The notes under the pieces were generated by a model, which worked only from the letters and a program-made list of their open reading frames with translations, did no database searches and had not been told where the DNA came from. Positions 380 through 10,731 of a stretch of DNA of 36,091 nucleotides are shown here, one piece after another (within the stretch, counting starts at the first letter, position 1; every line of letters begins with the position of its first letter). Origin of the DNA: Gammaproteobacteria bacterium. Its GTDB lineage: Bacteria > Pseudomonadota > Gammaproteobacteria > Burkholderiales > Burkholderiaceae_C. The translations under genes were made by a program, and so were the position numbers. Location: contig JAHJOG010000153.1 of NCBI GenBank assembly GCA_018820395.1, forward strand, positions 1 through 36,091. The letters run 5' to 3'.

Positions 380-1360
380 TTGAACCCCCAACGCAGAACA
401 CTCCTCACCGCGCTCGCCGCCGCCGGCGCGACCACCGTCGCCCCGTGGGCACACGCTCAAAGCTACCCCGACCAGGTCATCAAATGGATCGTGCCCTACC
501 CGGCAGGCGGCGGCACCGACGTGATCGCGCGCACGCTGGCGGAAGCGATGCGCCAGCCTCTCGGCCAGTCGATCGTGATCGACAACAGGCCGGGCGCGTC
601 GACCAACATCGGCGCGGACCTCGTGGCCAAGAGCAAGGCCGACGGCTACACGATCATGTCGGCCGACAACGCGGTGCTGGCCTTCAACGAGTTCCTGTTC
701 AGCAAGCTGCCGTTCAACCCCGAGAAGGACTTCAGCTACGTCGGCGCCATCGGCCGCTTTCCGCTGGCGATCGTGGTGAACCCCGAATTTCCCGCGAAGG
801 ACTTCAAGGAGTTTCTGGCCTACGCCAAGGCCAACCCCGGCAAGCTCAACTACGCGTCGCCGGGCAACGGGTCGCCTCACCATCTGGCGATGGAGATGTT
901 CAAGAACCGCACCAAGACCTTCATCACGCACATCCCGTACCGCGGCGCGGCGCCGGCCATGGCCGACGTGATGGGCGGGCAGGTGCAGTGCATGTTCCTC
1001 GACCTGGCGTCGGGCCTGCCGATCATGCAGAGCGGCAAGGTGCGCGTGCTGGCGATCGGTTCGGCGCAGCGCAGCAAGCTGCTGCCCAACGTGCCGACGT
1101 TGGCCGAAGTGGGTGTGCCGGACACCGAGGTGTTCGCGTTTCAGGGCGTGCTCGGGCCAGCGGGTTTGCCGCCGGCCGTGGTTCAGCGGCTGAACGGCGA
1201 GCTCAACAAGTCTTTCAGCAACCCGGCGGTACAGAAGCGCTTCACCGATTTCGGCATGGAGCCGCTGCCCGGAACGCCCGAGCAGTTCGCCGCGCTGGCG
1301 CGTGCGGAGTCGAAGCGCTGGGGGCCGATCATCAAGGCGCAGGGGATCAAGCTGGACTGA
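380..1360 (+). CDS. Bug-family tripartite tricarboxylate transporter substrate-binding protein (TctC-like)
   Basis: This is a 326-residue periplasmic binding protein of the Bug/TctC family. Such proteins capture organic acids for TctAB permeases or act as orphan sensors. I chose the TTG start because a GGAG lies eight bases upstream and because translation from it gives an immediate twin-arginine-like signal (NPQRRTLLTALAAAG, ending in AHAQ). Starting at the ATG at 98 would put about 94 unlikely residues before the signal. The mature part has the Bug hallmarks: WIVPYPAGGGTDVIAR near the start, then DNRPGAS, and PYRGAAPA later. No tctA or tctB is nearby. It converges on boxA and is not part of the box operon. 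The ligand is unknown; an aromatic acid is only a guess from the neighbourhood. Confidence 0.88.
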   Translation: MNPQRRTLLTALAAAGATTVAPWAHAQSYPDQVIKWIVPYPAGGGTDVIARTLAEAMRQPLGQSIVIDNRPGASTNIGADLVAKSKADGYTIMSADNAVLAFNEFLFSKLPFNPEKDFSYVGAIGRFPLAIVVNPEFPAKDFKEFLAYAKANPGKLNYASPGNGSPHHLAMEMFKNRTKTFITHIPYRGAAPAMADVMGGQVQCMFLDLASGLPIMQSGKVRVLAIGSAQRSKLLPNVPTLAEVGVPDTEVFAFQGVLGPAGLPPAVVQRLNGELNKSFSNPAVQKRFTDFGMEPLPGTPEQFAALARAESKRWGPIIKAQGIKLD

Positions 1361-1366
1361 TCGAAT

Positions 1367-1389
1367 GGGCCGGCCGCGTGGGCCGGCCC
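1367..1389. terminator. GC-rich hairpin between convergent genes
   Basis: A perfect 9-bp stem, GGGCCGGCC (1367-1375) with GGCCGGCCC (1381-1389), closes a GCGTG loop seven bases after the stop of the Bug gene and 43 bases beyond the stop of boxA. There is no T-run on either side, so it is not a canonical intrinsic terminator. Its position between converging genes suggests a shared bidirectional stop or an mRNA 3' end stabiliser. Confidence 0.45.
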
Positions 1390-1432
1390 TGTCAGCGTGC
1401 GGCCGTCGTCGGCGAGTCCGCGGCGCCGCCGC

Positions 1433-2497
1433 TCAATACGTCTCGAGGTGCATCCGCCCCTCGCGCTTCAGGCTCGCGCCCACGCTGTCCCAATCCAGGC
1501 CCGCTTCGACGGCCACGTCGCGCAGGGCCAGCATCACGCCTTCTTCCATGCTCTTCAGGCCGCACACGTAGAAGTGGCTCTGGCCGTCCTTGAGCATGGC
1601 GGCGAGGTCGGCCTTGCGTTCGCGCATGACGTCCTGCACGTAGCGCTTGGGCTGGCCCGGCGTGCGCGAGAAGGCGAAGTTGATGTCGATGAAGTCCTTG
1701 GGCAGGGTCTGCAGCGGGCCGAAGTAGGGCAGCTCCTGCTGCGTGCGCGCGCCGAAGAAGAGCATGAGCTTGCCGCCTTCGAACTTGCCGCTCTTGCGCA
1801 GGCGCCGGCGCCATTCGGTCATGGCGCGCATGGGGGCGCTGCCGGTGCCGGTGCAGATCATGACGATGTGCGACTTGGGGTGGTTGGGCATCAGGAACGA
1901 CGCGCCGAAAGGCCCGACGACCTGCACCTTGTCGCCGACCTTGAGGTCGCACACGTAGTTGCTGCACACGCCGTGCACGGGCTTGCCCTGGTGGTCTTCG
2001 CGCACGCGCTTCACGGTGAGCGAGATGTTGTTGTAGCCGGGGCGCTCGCCGTTGCGCGGGCTGGCGATGGAATATTGCCGCGCGAAGTGCGTCTTGCCGT
2101 TGGCGTCGGTGCCGGGCGCGATGATGCCGATCGACTGGCCTTCGAGCACCGGGAACGGCATGGCGCCGAAGTCCAGCACGATGTGGTGGGTCTGGTTCTC
2201 GAAGCCCGCTTCGGTGCAGTTGAAGTTGCCGACCACGGTGGCGGTGGTGGGGTTCTTCGGCGGGTGCAGGTTGGTGTACGCGTGCGCGGCCGACCAGGGC
2301 GGCGTGGTGGCGCCGTACTGCGCGGAGTTGAAGACGGGCTCGCCCGGCTCGGCCGCGGGCTGCGGCGTGGCGGCGGGCGGCGGCATCACGGCTTCGTCGG
2401 GCGCGGTGCCGGCTTCGGCTTCGAGCTGCTCGGGCGGCAGCTCGGCGGGGAGTTCGTCCCACGTGAGCTGCTCTTCGATCGAATACGCGCGCGCCAC
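1433..2497 (-). CDS. boxA: BoxA C-terminal FAD/NADPH reductase part (354 aa from a GTG)
   Basis: This part begins with an acidic, proline/alanine-rich linker (about the first 70 residues). It continues into a ferredoxin-NADP+ reductase fold, with the FAD motif RQYSIAS, the nucleotide motif CTGTGSAPMR and a C-terminal YVCGLKSMEEG. It ends in ETY, as expected for this reductase family. The GTG used as start lies four codons after the TGA, and no purine-rich ribosome binding site precedes it, so independent initiation would be weak. Coupled re-initiation after the TGA is possible, since stop and GTG are 12 bases apart. The start is an open-frame limit, not a supported initiation site. All reductase motifs look intact. 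Confidence 0.7.
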   Translation of the reverse strand: MARAYSIEEQLTWDELPAELPPEQLEAEAGTAPDEAVMPPPAATPQPAAEPGEPVFNSAQYGATTPPWSAAHAYTNLHPPKNPTTATVVGNFNCTEAGFENQTHHIVLDFGAMPFPVLEGQSIGIIAPGTDANGKTHFARQYSIASPRNGERPGYNNISLTVKRVREDHQGKPVHGVCSNYVCDLKVGDKVQVVGPFGASFLMPNHPKSHIVMICTGTGSAPMRAMTEWRRRLRKSGKFEGGKLMLFFGARTQQELPYFGPLQTLPKDFIDINFAFSRTPGQPKRYVQDVMRERKADLAAMLKDGQSHFYVCGLKSMEEGVMLALRDVAVEAGLDWDSVGASLKREGRMHLETY

Positions 2498-2509
2498 CGG
2501 AATGTGGCG

Positions 2510-2713
2510 TCAGTTGTCGATCGAGCCCGTCGGGCACGGCGAGATGCAATCCATGCAGCCGTTGCAGATGTCGGCCCGCACGACGTAGTTGCGGTCGTCG
2601 TGCGTGATCGCACCGACGGGGCAGGTCGCCTCGCAGGTGTTGCAGCGGATGCAGATCTCGGGGTCGATCAGGTGCTGCTTGAGCACACCTGCTTCGACCA
2701 ATGCGGCTTCCAT
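2510..2713 (-). CDS. boxA: BoxA N-terminal ferredoxin part (67 aa, ends at premature TGA)
   Basis: This piece encodes the bacterial-type ferredoxin domain of BoxA. Two cysteine motifs for two [4Fe-4S] clusters are complete: [12 protein letters not shown] (about residues 21-32) and [12 protein letters not shown] (about residues 50-61). It has a good ribosome binding site (AGGAG) and directly follows boxB. Translated alone it would be a freestanding 67-residue ferredoxin, a plausible size for a soluble electron carrier, but in the known family it is fused to the reductase. Its end at TGA immediately after the second cluster motif is what makes the locus odd. Confidence 0.75.
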
Positions 2714-2722
2714 CTCAGTCTC

Positions 2723-4150
2723 CTACCCGAACCTCACGTACTCGAAGTCAACCGGTTGCCTGTTGATGCCCATCACCGGCGGTGCAATCCAGCCGGCGAA
2801 CTTGCCGGGGTCGACCACGCGGCCCATCAACGATGCCACGAAAGCGAAGTCGCCGGGCGTGGGCAGCCATTCGTCCTTTTTGGCGGCCCATTCGGCCTCG
2901 TTCACCACGCGGCCTTCGGGCGACATCTTGATGCCGGCGAGGGCGCCGATCTGGCGGTTGAAGGCCTTGTGCGGCGCGATGAGGCGGGTCGGGACGCCGG
3001 CTTTTTCGAGCACCTTGTTCCAGCGGCCGATGCCGGCCACCGAGTCCTTGATGAAGTCGTCGCGCAGCACTTCGTTGAGCGCGTTGAGCATCGGCACTTC
3101 TTTCTCGAGGAGCTGGCCGTTCACCACTTCGAGGACCTTGTAGGTCTGGCCCTTGAGCACGTGGTCGTCCGTCCGCTTGCCTTCTTCGTAGCGGCCCTTG
3201 AGACCCGAGCTGTAGAAGGTGGCGGCGTTGCTCGACTGGTCGGCGCCGAAGAGGTCGATGGTGACGCTGTAATGAAAGTTCAGGTAGCGCTGGATAGTGC
3301 CCAGATCGATGCACCCGGCCGCACGGATCTTGGCCGGGTCGTCGGTCTTGAGCTCGTTCATGACGGCCGCGGTGCGTTGCAGCACGCGCGACACGCCCGA
3401 TTCACCCACGAACATGTGGTGCGCCTCTTCGGTCAGCATGAACTTGGTGGTGCGCGCCAGCGGGTCGAAGGCGCTTTCAGCGAGCGCCGACAGCTGGAAC
3501 TTGCCGTCGCGATCAGTAAAGTACGTGAACATGAAGAACGCGAGCCAGTCAGGCGTCTTCTCGTTGAAGGCGCCGAGGATGCGCGGGTTGTCCACGTCGC
3601 CCGAGGTGCGCTGCAACAGCGCGTCGGCTTCTTCGCGGCCGTCGCGGCCGAAGTGCTTGTGCAGCAGGTAGACCATGGCCCACAGGTGGCGGCCTTCTTC
3701 GACGTTGATCTGGAACAGGTTGCGCAGGTCGTACATGCTCGGCGCGGTGAGGCCGAGGTGGCGCTGCTGCTCGACCGACGCGGGCTCGGTGTCGCCCTGC
3801 GTGACGATGATGCGGCGCAGGTTGGCGCGGTGTTCGCCGGGCACGTCCTGCCAGGCCTTCTCGCCGAGCGAATCGCCGAAGTGGATCTTGCGTTCGGCAT
3901 CGCCCGGGTTCAGAAAGATGCCCCAGCGGTAGTCACGCATCTTCACGTGGCCGAACTGCGCCCAGCCTTGCGGGTCGACGCTCACTGCGGTGCGCAGGTA
4001 CACGTCGTAGTTGGTCGAGCCGTCCGGGCCGACGTCGTCCCACCAGTTGATGAAGTTCGGCTGCCAGCCTTCGAGCGCGCGCTGCAGCGTGCGGTCTTCT
4101 CCGAGGTTGACGTTGTTGGGGATCTTCTCGCTGTAGTTGATCGTGCTCAT
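2723..4150 (-). CDS. boxB: Benzoyl-CoA 2,3-epoxidase oxygenase component BoxB
   Basis: BoxB is a soluble diiron monooxygenase that inserts one oxygen atom into benzoyl-CoA, giving 2,3-epoxybenzoyl-CoA with electrons from BoxA. The protein is 475 residues, close to the roughly 473 of the Azoarcus evansii enzyme. Likely iron ligands are E122, E152 and H155 (in VEEGRHLW), D213 (in YFTDRDG), and E242 and H245 (in TEEAHHMF). They sit two residues later than the ligand numbers I recall for the A. evansii structure. An AAGGA lies upstream of the ATG; the gene is 19 bases from boxC and nine bases from boxA, so it is surely cotranscribed. Everything expected for activity is present, which makes the interrupted electron donor downstream more striking. 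Confidence 0.97.
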   Translation of the reverse strand: MSTINYSEKIPNNVNLGEDRTLQRALEGWQPNFINWWDDVGPDGSTNYDVYLRTAVSVDPQGWAQFGHVKMRDYRWGIFLNPGDAERKIHFGDSLGEKAWQDVPGEHRANLRRIIVTQGDTEPASVEQQRHLGLTAPSMYDLRNLFQINVEEGRHLWAMVYLLHKHFGRDGREEADALLQRTSGDVDNPRILGAFNEKTPDWLAFFMFTYFTDRDGKFQLSALAESAFDPLARTTKFMLTEEAHHMFVGESGVSRVLQRTAAVMNELKTDDPAKIRAAGCIDLGTIQRYLNFHYSVTIDLFGADQSSNAATFYSSGLKGRYEEGKRTDDHVLKGQTYKVLEVVNGQLLEKEVPMLNALNEVLRDDFIKDSVAGIGRWNKVLEKAGVPTRLIAPHKAFNRQIGALAGIKMSPEGRVVNEAEWAAKKDEWLPTPGDFAFVASLMGRVVDPGKFAGWIAPPVMGINRQPVDFEYVRFG

Positions 4151-4169
4151 CGTTGTTCCTTGGTTGGAT

Positions 4170-5840
4170 TCAGACGCGGTTCAAATCGAAGCCGGCTTTT
4201 TCGCCGGTGCCGTAGACCTTGAGGGCACCCTTTTCGCCGACGGCGTTGGGGCGGTTGAAGATCCAGTTCTGCCAGGCGGTCAGGCGCCCGAAGATGCGGG
4301 TCAGCATGTTTTCCTGGCTGGCGAAGCGCAGGTTGGCTTCGAGGCCGGTGAGCGCATCGGGCGACATGGCGGCGCGCTCTTCGATGGCGATGCGCAGCTC
4401 GTCGGCCCAGTCGATGTCGTCGGGCGCGGCGGTGACCAGGCCGAGCTTCAGGGCAGCATCGGCGTCGAGCATCTGGCCCGCGGCGCCGCGTGCGGCTTCG
4501 AGCGGGCCGGTCTCTTCGTAGAAGCGGCGCTGCAGGCGGCTCTGGTCGTTGACCATCGGATAGAAGCCGAAGTTGAACTCGTTGAGCGCGAACTTCGGCG
4601 CCTTGTCGGCGTCGTCGGGCAGGGCCAGCATGTAGCTGCGGTCGGCCGACAGAGCGATTTCGGCCAGCGTGCCGGCGAAGCAGGAGCCTTCGTCGATCAA
4701 CGCGAACAGGCTGCGCGACGACACGTCGAGCCGCGCGAGCGTGCGGCGCAGCATGCCGATGGTCTCGCGGCCGAGCCAGTGGTCCTGGTGGGCGAGCAGC
4801 GTGGCGTCGCTCGCGAGCACGGCCTGGGCATCGCCCTGGGTCTTGAGCAGCCAGGTGCCGATGTCGAGTTCGTTGGTGCGCAGATTGAGGATGGCGTCGT
4901 CGAGCTGGCGCGCCATGGCGAGCGGCCACCAGGTGGCGCCTGCGGCTTCGATGCCGGCCACGTCCTTGGGCTGCTCGCCGCTCGGTGCCTTGACGGTGAG
5001 CGTGGCAACGCGGCGCGCGCGATCGATCTCGACGGTGACGTGTTCGTAGCCCAGCGCGTCGGCGCTTTCTTCGCGTTCGAGGCGGGGCAGCGAAATGCCC
5101 TTGGCGTCGGCCGGACGCAGGCTGCCTTCGCCCAGCTTGGCAGCGCGCTCCTGCACGGTGGCCGCAAACTGCGCCGGCTTGGCGATGGCATCGACCAGCC
5201 GCCAGTCGACCGCGCGCTGGCCGCGCACGCCTTCGACGCTGGTGCAGAAGATGTCGGCCAGGTCGTGGCGCACGTGGCGCTTGTCGGTGACGCGGGTCAG
5301 GCCGCCGGTGCCGGGCAGCACGCCGAGCAGCGGCACTTCGGGCAGCGACACGGAAGATGAACGGTCGTCGACCAGCACGATCTCGTCGCAGGCCAGTGCG
5401 AGTTCATAGCCGCCGCCGGCGCAGGCGCCGTTGACCGCGGCGAGGAACTTCAGGCCCGAATGTTTGGACGAGTCTTCGATGCCGTTGCGCGTCTCGTTGG
5501 TGAACTTGCAGAAGTTCACCTTCCAGGAATGGCTGGAGACGCCGAGCATGAAGATGTTGGCGCCCGAACAGAAGATGCGGTCCTTGTCGCTGGTGACGAT
5601 CACCGAGCGCACCTGCGGGTGCTCGAAGCGCACGCGGTTGAGCGCGTCGGCCAGTTCGATGTCGACGCCCAGGTCGTAGCTGTTGAGCTTGAGCTTGTAG
5701 CCCGGGCGGATGCCGCCGTCTTCGGCGATGTCGAGCGACAGGCGCGCGACCGGGCCTTCGACGCTCAGTTTCCAGTGGCGGTACTGCGTCGGGTCGGTGC
5801 GGTAGTCGACACGGGGGGATGTGGCGGCGGATTCGGTCAT
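4170..5840 (-). CDS. boxC: 2,3-epoxybenzoyl-CoA dihydrolase BoxC
   Basis: BoxC is a crotonase-superfamily enzyme that hydrolytically opens the epoxidised ring of 2,3-epoxybenzoyl-CoA to 3,4-dehydroadipyl-CoA semialdehyde and formate. The 556-residue length is normal for BoxC, which is about twice a standard enoyl-CoA hydratase. The N-terminal half holds the crotonase core, with FCSGANIFMLG, then a glycine-rich oxyanion segment NGACAGGGYELALACDEIVL and PEVPLLGVLPGTGG. The C-terminal half is a degenerate second unit. Start: AGGAG about eight bases before the ATG. It is the first gene after a promoter and BoxR-type operator in the 155-bp gap behind boxR, and it is followed at 19 bases by boxB. 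Confidence 0.97.
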   Translation of the reverse strand: MTESAATSPRVDYRTDPTQYRHWKLSVEGPVARLSLDIAEDGGIRPGYKLKLNSYDLGVDIELADALNRVRFEHPQVRSVIVTSDKDRIFCSGANIFMLGVSSHSWKVNFCKFTNETRNGIEDSSKHSGLKFLAAVNGACAGGGYELALACDEIVLVDDRSSSVSLPEVPLLGVLPGTGGLTRVTDKRHVRHDLADIFCTSVEGVRGQRAVDWRLVDAIAKPAQFAATVQERAAKLGEGSLRPADAKGISLPRLEREESADALGYEHVTVEIDRARRVATLTVKAPSGEQPKDVAGIEAAGATWWPLAMARQLDDAILNLRTNELDIGTWLLKTQGDAQAVLASDATLLAHQDHWLGRETIGMLRRTLARLDVSSRSLFALIDEGSCFAGTLAEIALSADRSYMLALPDDADKAPKFALNEFNFGFYPMVNDQSRLQRRFYEETGPLEAARGAAGQMLDADAALKLGLVTAAPDDIDWADELRIAIEERAAMSPDALTGLEANLRFASQENMLTRIFGRLTAWQNWIFNRPNAVGEKGALKVYGTGEKAGFDLNRV

Positions 5841-5919
5841 GCGGTGTCTCCTGGGGCGGCTGGGCTAGGTTGGTTGCGGGAGCGCAGGAACAATAATGCA
5901 GTTATCCGATGCGCTGACA

Positions 5920-5933
5920 TGCATGATGCTGCA
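5920..5933 (-). promoter_or_regulatory. BoxR-type operator TGCA-N6-TGCA upstream of boxC
   Basis: An exact TGCA-N6-TGCA (spacer TGATGC on the plus strand) lies 80 bases before the boxC start. This matches the operator I recall for the benzoyl-CoA-responsive repressor BoxR in Azoarcus. It covers most of the proposed -10 box at 5923-5928, so a bound repressor would block RNA polymerase. A further lone TGCA occurs at 5897-5900. The operator assignment is inference from motif and position. Confidence 0.65.
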
Positions 5934-5951
5934 TGTTTTAAGCGGCGTCAA
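5923..5951 (-). promoter_or_regulatory. Predicted sigma-70 promoter for boxCBA
   Basis: On the minus strand a TTGACG (5951-5946) is followed after 17 bases by CATCAT (5928-5923). These match the sigma-70 consensus at 5 of 6 and 4 of 6 positions. Transcription would start near 5916, about 75 bases before boxC. The overlap with the TGCA-N6-TGCA site supports repression by BoxR and gives boxCBA a promoter separate from that of boxR. Confidence 0.5.
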
Positions 5952-5995
5952 CCGTCTGCGATCTTTTTTACAAGATGGCCAAGGCTGGCTTCGGC

Positions 5996-6922
5996 TCAGC
6001 GAGCAGCGGCCATCGCGCCGGTCACGGCCGAGCGCAGCGCCTCGAAGCTGTGCGCCAGGTTCTGCCCGCTGGTGTCCACGGTGATGTCGGCCTTCGAATA
6101 GAAAGCGGCCCGGCCGTTCAGGATGCGGCGCAGGTCTTCCATGGCTTCCTTGCTGGCGGCCATGGGGCGCGTGTCGCCCTGCGCCGCGACGCGGCCCATG
6201 TGCTCTTCGGGCGCGGCCTGCAGCCACACGGTGGTGCAGTGCTGCAGCAGCTCGTTGAAGGTGGCCGGGTCGGACACGATGCCGCCGGGCGTGGCGATGA
6301 TCACGTCGGTGTAGATCTGCACGGTTTCTTCGAGCGCACGGCGCTCGTAGCGGCGGTAGGCGTTGGTGCCGTAGAGGTCGTGGATCTCGCGCACGCTGCA
6401 GCCGGCCAGCTTCTCGATTTCGCGGCTCAACTCGATGAAGGGCACTTCGAGGTCGTCCGCCAGCATCTGGCCGAGGGTGGATTTGCCGGCCCCGCGCAGC
6501 CCCACCAGCGCAAAGCGGCGGCCGCGCGCCGGGTCGCGGGCAGCGCCACCGAGCAGGTCGCCCAGCGCGATGCGCACGCGGCGCAGGTCGGCTTCGCTGC
6601 GCTGTTCGAGCATCTCGCGGATGAGCAGCCATTCGGCCGAACTGGTGGTGACGTCGCCCACCAGCTCGGCCAGCGAGCAATGCAAGGCGGCCGCGACCTG
6701 CTGCAGCACCAGGATCGAGGCGTTGCCGATGCCGTATTCGAGATTGGCCAGGTGCCGCTCCGACACGTCCGCGGCCAGCGCGACGGCCTTGCGCGTGAGC
6801 CCTCGACGCGCGCGGAGCGTGCGCACACGTTCGCCGAGCGCCACGAGCAACGGGTTCTTGGCTTCCTCCGCAGGCGCGGTCGCATCGGGTGGGGTCATCA
6901 CCGCGTCGACTCGATCGTTCAT
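5996..6922 (-). CDS. boxR: BoxR, benzoyl-CoA-responsive transcriptional repressor (HTH plus shikimate-kinase-like domain)
   Basis: BoxR controls box genes; in Azoarcus it represses until it binds benzoyl-CoA. From the chosen start the protein is 308 residues. An XRE-type helix-turn-helix lies at about 25-85 (LGERVRTLRARRGLTRKAVA, then SERHLANLEYG). A C-terminal shikimate-kinase-like domain follows, with Walker A GLRGAGKST and the segments YGTNAYRRYE and TPGGIVS. I chose the ATG at 6922 because AAGGA precedes it closely; an in-frame ATG at 6976 would add 18 residues and overlap the promoter. It is divergent from the benzoate activation operon and upstream of boxC with a 155-bp gap. The kinase fold is thought to serve effector binding, not shikimate phosphorylation. 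Confidence 0.95.
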   Translation of the reverse strand: MNDRVDAVMTPPDATAPAEEAKNPLLVALGERVRTLRARRGLTRKAVALAADVSERHLANLEYGIGNASILVLQQVAAALHCSLAELVGDVTTSSAEWLLIREMLEQRSEADLRRVRIALGDLLGGAARDPARGRRFALVGLRGAGKSTLGQMLADDLEVPFIELSREIEKLAGCSVREIHDLYGTNAYRRYERRALEETVQIYTDVIIATPGGIVSDPATFNELLQHCTTVWLQAAPEEHMGRVAAQGDTRPMAASKEAMEDLRRILNGRAAFYSKADITVDTSGQNLAHSFEALRSAVTGAMAAAR

Positions 6923-6971
6923 GGCGTTCCTTGTGTCGTCCGAACCGAGATCCTGGGGTAAACCCATAGGA

Positions 6972-6985
6972 TGCACTATATTGCT
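6972..6985. promoter_or_regulatory. BoxR-like site TGCA-CTATAT-TGCT at the boxR promoter
   Basis: This is a one-mismatch version of TGCA-N6-TGCA. It overlaps a good leftward -10 box, TATAGT, on the minus strand (6980-6975), about 50 bases before the boxR ATG. Autoregulation of boxR would follow if BoxR binds here. It also touches the rightward -35 box TTGACA that begins at 6985. Motif and position are seen; binding is inferred. Confidence 0.5.
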
Positions 6986-7013
6986 TGACAGCGGTCGGGG
7001 CGGTATCTATCGT
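6985..7013 (+). promoter_or_regulatory. Predicted promoter of the DUF4863-boxD-bclA-ABC operon
   Basis: A perfect -35 hexamer TTGACA (6985-6990) is followed after 17 bases by TATCGT (7008-7013), a 4-of-6 match to the -10 consensus. The predicted start point is near 7020, about 85 bases before the first gene. BoxR-like sites at 6972-6985 and 7023-7036 lie on either side, touching the -35 box and just after the start point. Confidence 0.55.
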
Positions 7014-7022
7014 TCGTCCACA

Positions 7023-7036
7023 AGCAAGATACTGCA
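7023..7036. promoter_or_regulatory. BoxR-like site AGCA-AGATAC-TGCA downstream of the rightward promoter
   Basis: On the minus strand this reads TGCA-GTATCT-TGCT, the same one-mismatch form as the site at 6972-6985 but in opposite orientation. It covers the first transcribed bases of the rightward operon, a classic place for a repressor roadblock. The distance between the two sites is 51 bases, about five helical turns, which would allow both to be bound on one DNA face. Confidence 0.45.
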
Positions 7037-7105
7037 CACCAGCTTTTGACGCAAGCACGCGGCGTCAACATCCTGCCAACCCTGTCCACGAACCGCCACG
7101 ACACG

Positions 7106-7567
7106 ATGTCCAAGCAAACCTTCCACGCCCTCGTGGCCGACCTGACGACCCAGATCGCCGGCCGCCCGCTCGACGACGAGCTCGACCGCTGGCTGAACGC
7201 CGTGCACGGCGCGGACAGCGACACCTTCGAGCGCCTGAAGAGCGCTTGCGTCGACGGCGTGGCCGAAGGCTGGCTGTGCGACCGCGAGGGCGGCGGCATC
7301 CGCTACGGCCGCGTGTTCAAGCCCGAAGAGGCGCTGCACGGCTTCTCGGTCGACGTGGTCGACATGCAAGACCTGGCCGGCCCGCACCATGCCCACCCCA
7401 ACGGCGAGATAGACCTGATCATGCCGCTCACCGAAGGTGCAAGCTTCGACGGCCGGCCCGCCGGCTGGTGCGTGTACGGGCCCGGCACGGCGCACCACCC
7501 GACCGTGACCGAAGGCCGCGCGCTCGTCCTCTACCTGCTGCCCGCCGGGCAGATCAAATTCTCCTGA
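7106..7567 (+). CDS. DUF4863 family protein (related to 4-hydroxylaminobenzoate lyase)
   Basis: This 153-residue protein belongs to DUF4863, the family of p-hydroxylaminobenzoate lyases (PnbB) from 4-nitrobenzoate degradation. Family members are also common in box clusters. The second half looks like a compact cupin-type metal site: GPHHAHPNGEIDLIMPL (about 92-108), with H94, H95, H97 and E101 as candidate ligands, and GPGTAHHP with H130 and H131. The N-terminal part is helical. I chose the ATG at 7106; an upstream ATG at 7046 would place 20 unconvincing residues over the operator region. It is the first gene of the operon, seven bases before boxD. No nitroreductase is present, so a nitrobenzoate role is not supported; processing of an aberrant benzoate-derived compound is a guess. 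Confidence 0.85.
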   Translation: MSKQTFHALVADLTTQIAGRPLDDELDRWLNAVHGADSDTFERLKSACVDGVAEGWLCDREGGGIRYGRVFKPEEALHGFSVDVVDMQDLAGPHHAHPNGEIDLIMPLTEGASFDGRPAGWCVYGPGTAHHPTVTEGRALVLYLLPAGQIKFS

Positions 7568-7574
7568 GGCCTCC

Positions 7575-9128
7575 ATGACCGAACTGCTTTCCAACTACGT
7601 GTCCGGCCGCTGGCAGGCAGGCACCGGCGCCGGCACCGTGCTGCTCGACCCGGTGCTCGGCGACGAACTGGTGCGCGTCGACGCCACCGGCCTCGACCTG
7701 CCGGCCGCTTTCGGCTTCGCGCGCCAGACCGGCGGTGCGGCGCTGCGCGCCCTGGGCTACCGCGAGCGCGCGGCGCTCCTGGGCGAGATCGTGAAGGTGC
7801 TGCAGGCCAATCGTGATGCCTACTACGAGATCGCGACGGCCAATTCAGGCACGGTCAAGAACGATTCGGCGGTGGACATCGACGGAGCGATCTTCACGCT
7901 CGGCCAGTACGCCAAGTGGGGCGCGGCTTTGGGCGATGCGCGTGCGCTGCGCGACGGCGACGCGGCCCGGCTCGGCAAGGAGCCGGTGTTCATGTCACAG
8001 CACCTGCAGGTGCCGACACCGGGCGTGGCGCTCTTCATCAACGCCTTCAACTTTCCGTCGTGGGGTCTGTGGGAAAAGGCGGCGCCAGCGCTGCTGTCGG
8101 GCGTGCCGGTGATCGTCAAGCCGGGCACGTCCACGGCCTGGCTCACGCAGCGCATGGTGCGCGACGTGGTCGAGGCCGGCGTGCTGCCGGCGGGTGCGCT
8201 GTCGGTCATCTGCGGCAGCTCGCAGGGGCTGCTCGATGCGCTGGAAGGCTTCGACGTGCTGTCGTTCACCGGCTCGGCCGAAACCGGCGCGCAGATCCGC
8301 TCGCACGACGCCGTGACCCGGCGCTCGGTGCGCGTCAACATCGAGGCCGACAGCCTCAACTCCGCCATCCTCATGCCCGACGCGGCGCCCGGCTCCGATG
8401 CCTTCAACCTGCTGGTGCGCGAGGTGGTGCGCGAAATGACGGTCAAGTCGGGCCAGAAATGCACCGCCATCCGCCGCGTGATGGTGCCCGAAGCGATGTT
8501 CGACGCGGCGGCCGAAGCCATCGGCGCCAAGCTGGCGGGCATCACGGTCGGCAACCCGCGCAACGAGAGCGTGCGCATGGGCTCGCTGGTGAGCCGTGCG
8601 CAACTGAACTCGGTGCGCGAAGGCCTGAACGAACTGAAGGCGCAGGCCGAAGTACTGCACGACGGCAGCCAGCAGGCGCTGGTGGATGCCGACCCGGCCG
8701 TGGCCGCCTGCATCGGCCCGGTGCTGCTCGGCGTGCGCGATGCCGACGTGGCGCTGCGCGTGCACGACCTCGAGGTGTTCGGCCCGGTCGCCACGCTGAT
8801 GCCTTACCGCGACGTCGATCATGCGGTGGCGCTGGCGCATCGCGGCCAGGGCTCGCTGGTGAGCTCGCTCTACGGCGCCGACGATGCGGCGCTGGGCCGC
8901 GCGGCCGTGGCGCTGGCCGCGAGCCACGGGCGCGTTCATGTGGTCACGCCCGGCGTGGCCAAGGAACAGACCGGCCACGGCAACGTGATGCCGATGTCGC
9001 TGCACGGCGGGCCGGGCCGCGCCGGCGGCGGCGCCGAACTCGGCGGCCTGCGTGCTCTGGACTTCTATCACCGGCGCAGCGCGGTGCAGGCGAGCCCGGC
9101 CGTGCTGGCCGCGCTCGGCATTCAATGA
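7575..9128 (+). CDS. boxD: 3,4-dehydroadipyl-CoA semialdehyde dehydrogenase (NADP+), BoxD
   Basis: This enzyme oxidises the semialdehyde made by BoxC to 3,4-dehydroadipyl-CoA, the step that commits the opened ring to a beta-oxidation-like route. It is 517 residues, an aldehyde dehydrogenase of the PaaZ/BoxD branch. Catalytic residues are visible: N159 in INAFNFPSWG, E257 in VNIEADSLNS and C296 in KSGQKCTAIRR; these match the numbers I recall for the Burkholderia xenovorans enzyme. The C-terminal segment ends with LGGLRALDFYHRRS, typical of this branch. There is no fused hydratase domain, unlike full-length PaaZ. It is seven bases after the DUF4863 gene and 52 bases before the ligase. Confidence 0.94.
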   Translation: MTELLSNYVSGRWQAGTGAGTVLLDPVLGDELVRVDATGLDLPAAFGFARQTGGAALRALGYRERAALLGEIVKVLQANRDAYYEIATANSGTVKNDSAVDIDGAIFTLGQYAKWGAALGDARALRDGDAARLGKEPVFMSQHLQVPTPGVALFINAFNFPSWGLWEKAAPALLSGVPVIVKPGTSTAWLTQRMVRDVVEAGVLPAGALSVICGSSQGLLDALEGFDVLSFTGSAETGAQIRSHDAVTRRSVRVNIEADSLNSAILMPDAAPGSDAFNLLVREVVREMTVKSGQKCTAIRRVMVPEAMFDAAAEAIGAKLAGITVGNPRNESVRMGSLVSRAQLNSVREGLNELKAQAEVLHDGSQQALVDADPAVAACIGPVLLGVRDADVALRVHDLEVFGPVATLMPYRDVDHAVALAHRGQGSLVSSLYGADDAALGRAAVALAASHGRVHVVTPGVAKEQTGHGNVMPMSLHGGPGRAGGGAELGGLRALDFYHRRSAVQASPAVLAALGIQ

Positions 9129-9180
9129 TCGCTGCCGGCGCCGCAAACCCCGCGAGAGCAAGACAGCAAGAGGAGACACG

Positions 9181-10727
<1,547 letters not shown>

Positions 10728-10731
<4 letters not shown>

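Follow-up and report, generated by a model that had tools for sequence, protein, structure and literature searches.

A single in-frame TGA interrupts the only boxA gene found in the draft genome of a Variovorax-like soil bacterium, and a recent nonsense change, private among the genomes examined and possibly introduced in one short multi-base event, is probably the cause. An earlier sequence-only reading had offered three options for this stop, i.e., a fresh nonsense change, a base-call error, or a ferredoxin and a reductase made as two chains. The first of these is the best supported, because the stop is private, the gene is single-copy, the remaining frame is intact, the dN/dS of the reductase part is normal, and the neighbouring genes are intact. 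The main product would then be a 67-residue fragment that carries the ferredoxin only, so that the electron flow from NADPH to BoxB would be lost or strongly reduced.

The interrupted boxA frame and its neighbours

The window, i.e., the whole stretch of DNA analysed, is the complete contig C134, 36,091 bases long. The draft genome to which it belongs totals 5,283,514 bases over 331 contigs, with 99.1% completeness and 3.2% contamination. The closest boxA genes among named relatives are mostly from Variovorax. The following features were considered:

2513..2713, minus strand: boxA codons 1-67, with the ATG and two CxxCxxCxxxCP motifs (two [4Fe-4S] clusters expected)
2510..2512, minus strand: in-frame TGA, boxA codon 68
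1433..2509, minus strand: remaining boxA frame, with the tail of the conserved ferredoxin block, a variable linker, an FNR-type FAD/NADPH reductase and the natural stop
2501..2510, minus strand: cluster of four bases that depart from sites conserved at 95% or more (codon positions 68.3, 70.1, 70.2 and 71.3)
2495..2497, minus strand: GTG codon 73, the first common in-frame start past the TGA, without a ribosome-binding site
2492..2509, minus strand: inverted repeat CGCCAC-ATTCCG-GTGGCG with a 6-bp stem, immediately 3' of the TGA
2723..4150, minus strand: boxB, intact, immediately upstream of boxA (TIGR03225, 881 bits, cut-off 499)
4170..5840, minus strand: boxC, intact (TIGR03222, 960 bits, cut-off 712)
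5996..6976, minus strand: BoxR-type regulator (NF006015)
7575..9128, plus strand: 3,4-dehydroadipyl-CoA semialdehyde dehydrogenase, BoxD type (NF008868, 910 bits)
9052..10731, plus strand: benzoate-CoA ligase family frame (TIGR02262, 778 bits)

The boxA frame (2713..1436) comprises 426 codons: 67 codons starting with the ATG at 2713, the TGA, and 358 codons up to the natural end. As the sequence-only reading had stated, the TGA at codon 68 (2512..2510, minus strand) is the sole internal stop of an otherwise continuous frame, and the cysteine and flavin/NADPH motifs are present: all eight ferredoxin cysteines lie 5' of the TGA, which is located eight codons past the last cluster cysteine. The read-through frame is 91% identical to the nearest relative and scores 737 bits on the BoxA profile TIGR03224 (cut-off 459); the piece after the stop alone scores 588 bits, and the ferredoxin piece (codons 1-67) alone scores 114 bits, below the cut-off. 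The two 4Fe-4S motifs and the FAD/NADPH reductase by which BoxA is recognised do not share one unbroken frame, as the TGA lies between them. The same reading placed the split exactly between the two halves. Although the cysteines come before the stop and the reductase after it, this is an overstatement: the stop falls inside a conserved block, the variable stretch begins near codon 93, about 25 codons further on, and the reductase domain begins only near codon 145.

A search of the genome for a further boxA copy gave none; the other match covers residues 245-407 only, at 38% identity. A benzoate dioxygenase reductase (BenC) was considered as an alternative and rejected, with the best score in the genome being 195 bits compared to a curated cut-off of 430, in a search that covered the reductase only. 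Four matches of the BenC search were flagged as containing TGA; three of them end at their own natural stops, and the fourth (contig C224) stops just before a start-like MKSDTRW. In the part of the literature that was covered, we found no mention of a stop in boxA.

The genes boxC, boxB and boxA share the minus strand and are preceded by the BoxR-type regulator. The description of boxB and boxC as functional in appearance is correct at the sequence level, both being full length and above their profile cut-offs, and no internal stop was found in the boxC, boxB, regulator, dehydrogenase or ligase frames of the window. The true start of the ligase frame is probably downstream of 9052, given that the profile match runs from residue 49 on. 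The ribosome-binding site of boxA overlaps the boxB stop (-7.6 kcal/mol with the 16S tail). The spacing between boxB and boxA (window 2698-2726) is unusually short, with 27 bases from the last codon before the boxB stop to boxA codon 6, compared to 138 in the nearest relative (G095).

Codon 68 in relatives and the cluster of changes around the stop

Codon 68 is TGG in all 109 other loci, representing 90 distinct matched stretches because some genomes entered via two collections; the sequence-only reading was thus right that homologues have TGG here, and no other locus examined shares the stop. The check proposed with the original claim, i.e., whether close relatives all carry the TGA, was run, and none of the 109 loci does, so the claim is not refuted. 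In the search of 101 genomes of the genus, a full-length boxA without stops was found in 90 of the 100 others. The exceptions are one gene broken elsewhere (G100), one fragment (G076), and eight genomes with weak boxA matches or none. In G100 (locus L120, contig C29), boxA is broken near codon 236 and the boxB frame is broken as well; this is probably an error-rich assembly. The family search matched 195 of 399 genomes, several of them with two partial matches, and among the matches listed a stop was present only in the genome under study (G000).

The boxB gene was found in 91 of the 101 genus genomes, always accompanied by a boxA gene (a broken one in G000 and in G100), and among the ten genomes without boxB, boxA was seen only in G076 (the fragment) and G098. 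Since boxB never occurs without a boxA gene in these 101 genomes, BoxA is not normally dispensable here. Two genomes carry second, diverged boxA copies next to the normal one (G066, contig C27, 73% identity; G068, contig C104, 48% identity). In 40 aligned relatives, positions 68, 69, 72, 77, 85, 88 and 89 are invariant. In the four distant plasmid BoxA copies that were read, out of 12 matches, position 68 is W, W, W and Y, and position 69 varies. Two loci on Cupriavidus plasmids (L203 and L204) encode distant BoxA-like proteins of about 40-43% identity, one of them with Tyr at the position of W68.

The sequence-only reading missed a change at codons 70 and 71. The residues here are H and I, and neither is present in the 109 other loci, which have T, I, S, N, K or V at position 70 and M, V or L at position 71. 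Compared to 43 relatives, this boxA departs at nine of 823 sites conserved at 95% or more, and four of the nine departures fall within 10 bases, in codons 68, 70 and 71. A permutation test within boxA packed four departures into 12 bases in none of 5000 trials; among the 43 relatives, a single one, the metagenome bin L062, has a cluster of this density. Such a cluster of four changes is odd for a simple point mutation, and it also argues against an isolated miscalled base. A pure one-base error, as originally suggested, is a poorer match to the data, given three further rare changes no more than 9 bases away. What stands of that option is a local fault of consensus or assembly, in which the draft contig misrepresents the sequence at and near codons 68-71 and the organism itself carries a normal boxA. 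This is the main rival of a genuine nonsense change, and we regard it as unlikely, though deserving serious attention. It is consistent with the fragmented and partly contaminated state of the draft, and with the position of four rare changes in 10 bases next to an inverted repeat; on the other hand, the reading frame is preserved across the cluster.

A patch in boxB with a stronger appearance is instructive in this respect. Codons 93-95 of boxB contain seven departures in 12 bases, which is denser than the boxA cluster, and all six bases of codons 94-95 (3866-3871, minus strand; residues SL) are unlike those of nearly all Variovorax. This patch was rejected as a sign of bad sequence, as the same residues, in other codons, are found in two Pseudorhodoferax loci (L086 and L092) of 74. 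It is therefore a natural variant, which counts against an assembly fault insofar as a patch in this contig need not signal an error. The benzoate-CoA ligase frame also contains a four-base cluster (permutation P 0.002), equalled by two of 38 relatives. Natural clusters of replacements thus exist here, and the one in boxA can neither establish nor rule out an error.

Several sources for the odd patch were considered and rejected. A search of the genome for the 15-mer GACGCCACATTCCGG gave the boxA site as its single occurrence, so no donor is present there. No near DNA match was found on plasmids, and none of the four distant plasmid BoxA copies read, out of 12 matches, has H-I at positions 70-71. 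Recombination of boxA alone was likewise rejected, as the gene-wise identities reflect a longer branch of the window and not a donor specific to boxA. The lower identity (85%) of 2736-9111, from boxB on, probably reflects the other genes and spacers included in that alignment.

The wider quality of the assembly bears on the rival in both directions. A six-frame coding scan, which detects stops and not frameshifts, was applied to 388,761 bases, or 7.4% of the genome, made up of the window plus 20 further stretches. The boxA TGA was the only stop judged by eye to be intragenic; the other candidates look like gene boundaries or non-coding sequence, and one (L140, position 4963) is ambiguous. Stops of this kind are thus not widespread in the assembly, which speaks against a fault. 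Conversely, tRNA-Trp is absent from the 42 tRNA matches in the genome, all of them typed by ARAGORN, and a tRNA-Trp sequence pattern that matches six of six control genomes has no match in it. The three control loci checked are tRNA-Trp according to ARAGORN, and tuf and secE/nusG frames adjoin one of them. Because tRNA-Trp is missing, the assembly probably has gaps, which favours the fault; this gap probably adjoins the tuf repeat. The stretch from the end of tuf through secE to nusG had no match in the genome, but this carries no weight, as the search had no positive control and also missed the tuf copy on contig C262.

Selective constraint and the two-chain possibility

Compared to the nearest relative (G095), the reductase part (codons 145-426) has a dN/dS of 0.108, close to the 0.102 that is the median for 19 relatives. 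For the linker (codons 72-144), the ratio is 0.253 (relatives' median 0.188), for boxB 0.100 (0.089), and for boxC 0.207 (0.158). A normal value for the reductase part is what a young break predicts; on these ratios, the frame past the stop appears to be free of long decay, and the reductase part still looks selected. The ferredoxin part (codons 12-67) has a dN/dS of 0.173 compared to G095, based on about 4.5 nonsynonymous differences. Its median compared to all relatives is 0.114, the highest of 20 (rank 1), and the relatives have 0.037 among themselves, which hints at some earlier relaxation in this part of the sequence.

Normal constraint on the reductase part would also be expected if BoxA worked as two chains, with the ferredoxin (residues 1-67) and a reductase translated separately from GTG 73 or from a start further downstream. 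As this explanation predicts, the stop comes after all eight cluster cysteines, and the 67-residue piece is, by its length, presumably like a complete small ferredoxin of the clostridial type, which favours a stand-alone ferredoxin. The GTG 12 bases past the TGA does exist (codon 73) and, as had been noted, has no ribosome-binding site: its pairing with the 16S tail is -0.6 kcal/mol, compared to -5.2 to -7.6 kcal/mol at the starts of boxA, boxB and boxC. GTG 109 likewise lacks one (-0.7 kcal/mol), and the pairing at ATG 110 is weak (-1.8 kcal/mol). Among the ATG, GTG, TTG, CTG and ATT codons scanned in positions 69-159, no start with a good ribosome-binding site of its own was found for a second chain; the best pairing, a modest -3.5 kcal/mol, belongs to CTG 92, a start of a rare type.

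The location of the cut is a further argument against two chains. The stop lies inside a conserved block in which positions 68, 69, 72 and 77 do not vary in the 40 relatives, and the predicted structure has a strand at 67-71 (moderate confidence; mean pLDDT 65, a hint only). Taken together, these conserved positions and the modelled strand suggest that the truncation takes away a portion of a conserved fold. In three intact relatives, codons 66-144 account for 22-23% of the single-base routes to a stop and for 37-39% of the routes by transition; a stop "between the halves" is therefore an ordinary coincidence. As none of the 109 loci is stopped at codon 68 either, the two-chain option has little support, and we consider it very improbable. 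There is no support for a new kind of BoxA.

Read-through, recoding and comparison with known systems

Under the preferred explanation of a recent nonsense change, re-initiation at GTG 73 would not be the source of any full-length BoxA; judging from E. coli data, such BoxA would be expected to come from occasional misreading of UGA, mainly as Trp, the residue of the relatives. A dedicated recoding of the UGA, either as selenocysteine or by a suppressor tRNA that reads it as Trp, is the least probable of the explanations considered, and we view it as extremely unlikely. The genome does contain a SelB match above the curated cut-off and tRNA-Sec (contig C12, locus L181), and because tRNA-Trp was not recovered, a changed anticodon is possible. 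However, codon 68 is Trp and not Cys in the relatives; a general Rfam scan, the one search that bears on SECIS elements, gave no match above the gathering score in 1300-6000; and the other genes in the 388,761 sampled bases have no clear stops of this kind. The hairpin past the TGA (-9.8 kcal/mol over 21 nt) is not unusually stable, as it is equalled or exceeded in 26 of the 109 relatives. The features of programmed readthrough or recoding are thus missing: the stop is kept in none of the 109 loci, and the downstream structure is not distinct from that of unaffected relatives.

Plain leakiness appears more plausible than dedicated recoding. With regard to context, UGAC is said to rank as a weak terminator in the work of Poole et al. 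of 1995. In E. coli reporters, TGA is read through mainly as Trp at a rate that depends on context, and the study links more read-through to G after the stop and reports no correlation with predicted mRNA structure (PMC11126739); as boxA has C after its TGA, the evidence from context is mixed. According to a review, cells contain far less BoxA than BoxB, and minor amounts suffice (PMC4498308). Together, misreading of UGA as Trp and a low demand for BoxA would make residual function, and a living pathway, possible. The stop may then be real and tolerated, with misreading acting as a dimmer: a few per cent of the ribosomes would produce full-length BoxA, which could be enough given how little of it BoxB requires, and the excess of the 67-residue chain could serve as free ferredoxin. 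From the present analysis, we regard this version as quite unlikely. It should be noted that, according to a study of conserved bacterial genes, in-frame stops can be short-lived polymorphisms (PMC7918605); therefore, boxA may be intact in the species at large.

If the stop is real, this locus would be a clean natural case in which to ask whether leaky decoding of UGA, at the Trp codon of a component in low demand, keeps a catabolic pathway going. Annotation would either credit the genome with benzoate degradation, from boxB, boxC and the ligase, or label boxA a pseudogene, leaving the functional truth undecided. If an assembly fault or a break at the strain level is responsible, the case is ordinary.

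Compared to its relatives in the BoxA family (TIGR03224), this BoxA shares a profile score above the cut-off and the arrangement of boxC, boxB and boxA on one strand, whereas its stop at codon 68 and the unusual codons 70 and 71 occur in none of the 109 other loci. With UGA read-through in E. coli, it shares a TGA at a Trp position; the next base is C, whereas that study ties G to more read-through (PMC11126739). Compared to the in-frame stops of conserved bacterial genes (PMC7918605), the case differs in that no orthologous stop was found in another species, that work focusing on stops common to orthologues of at least two species; what is shared is an isolated stop, an intact frame, and a dN/dS well below 1.
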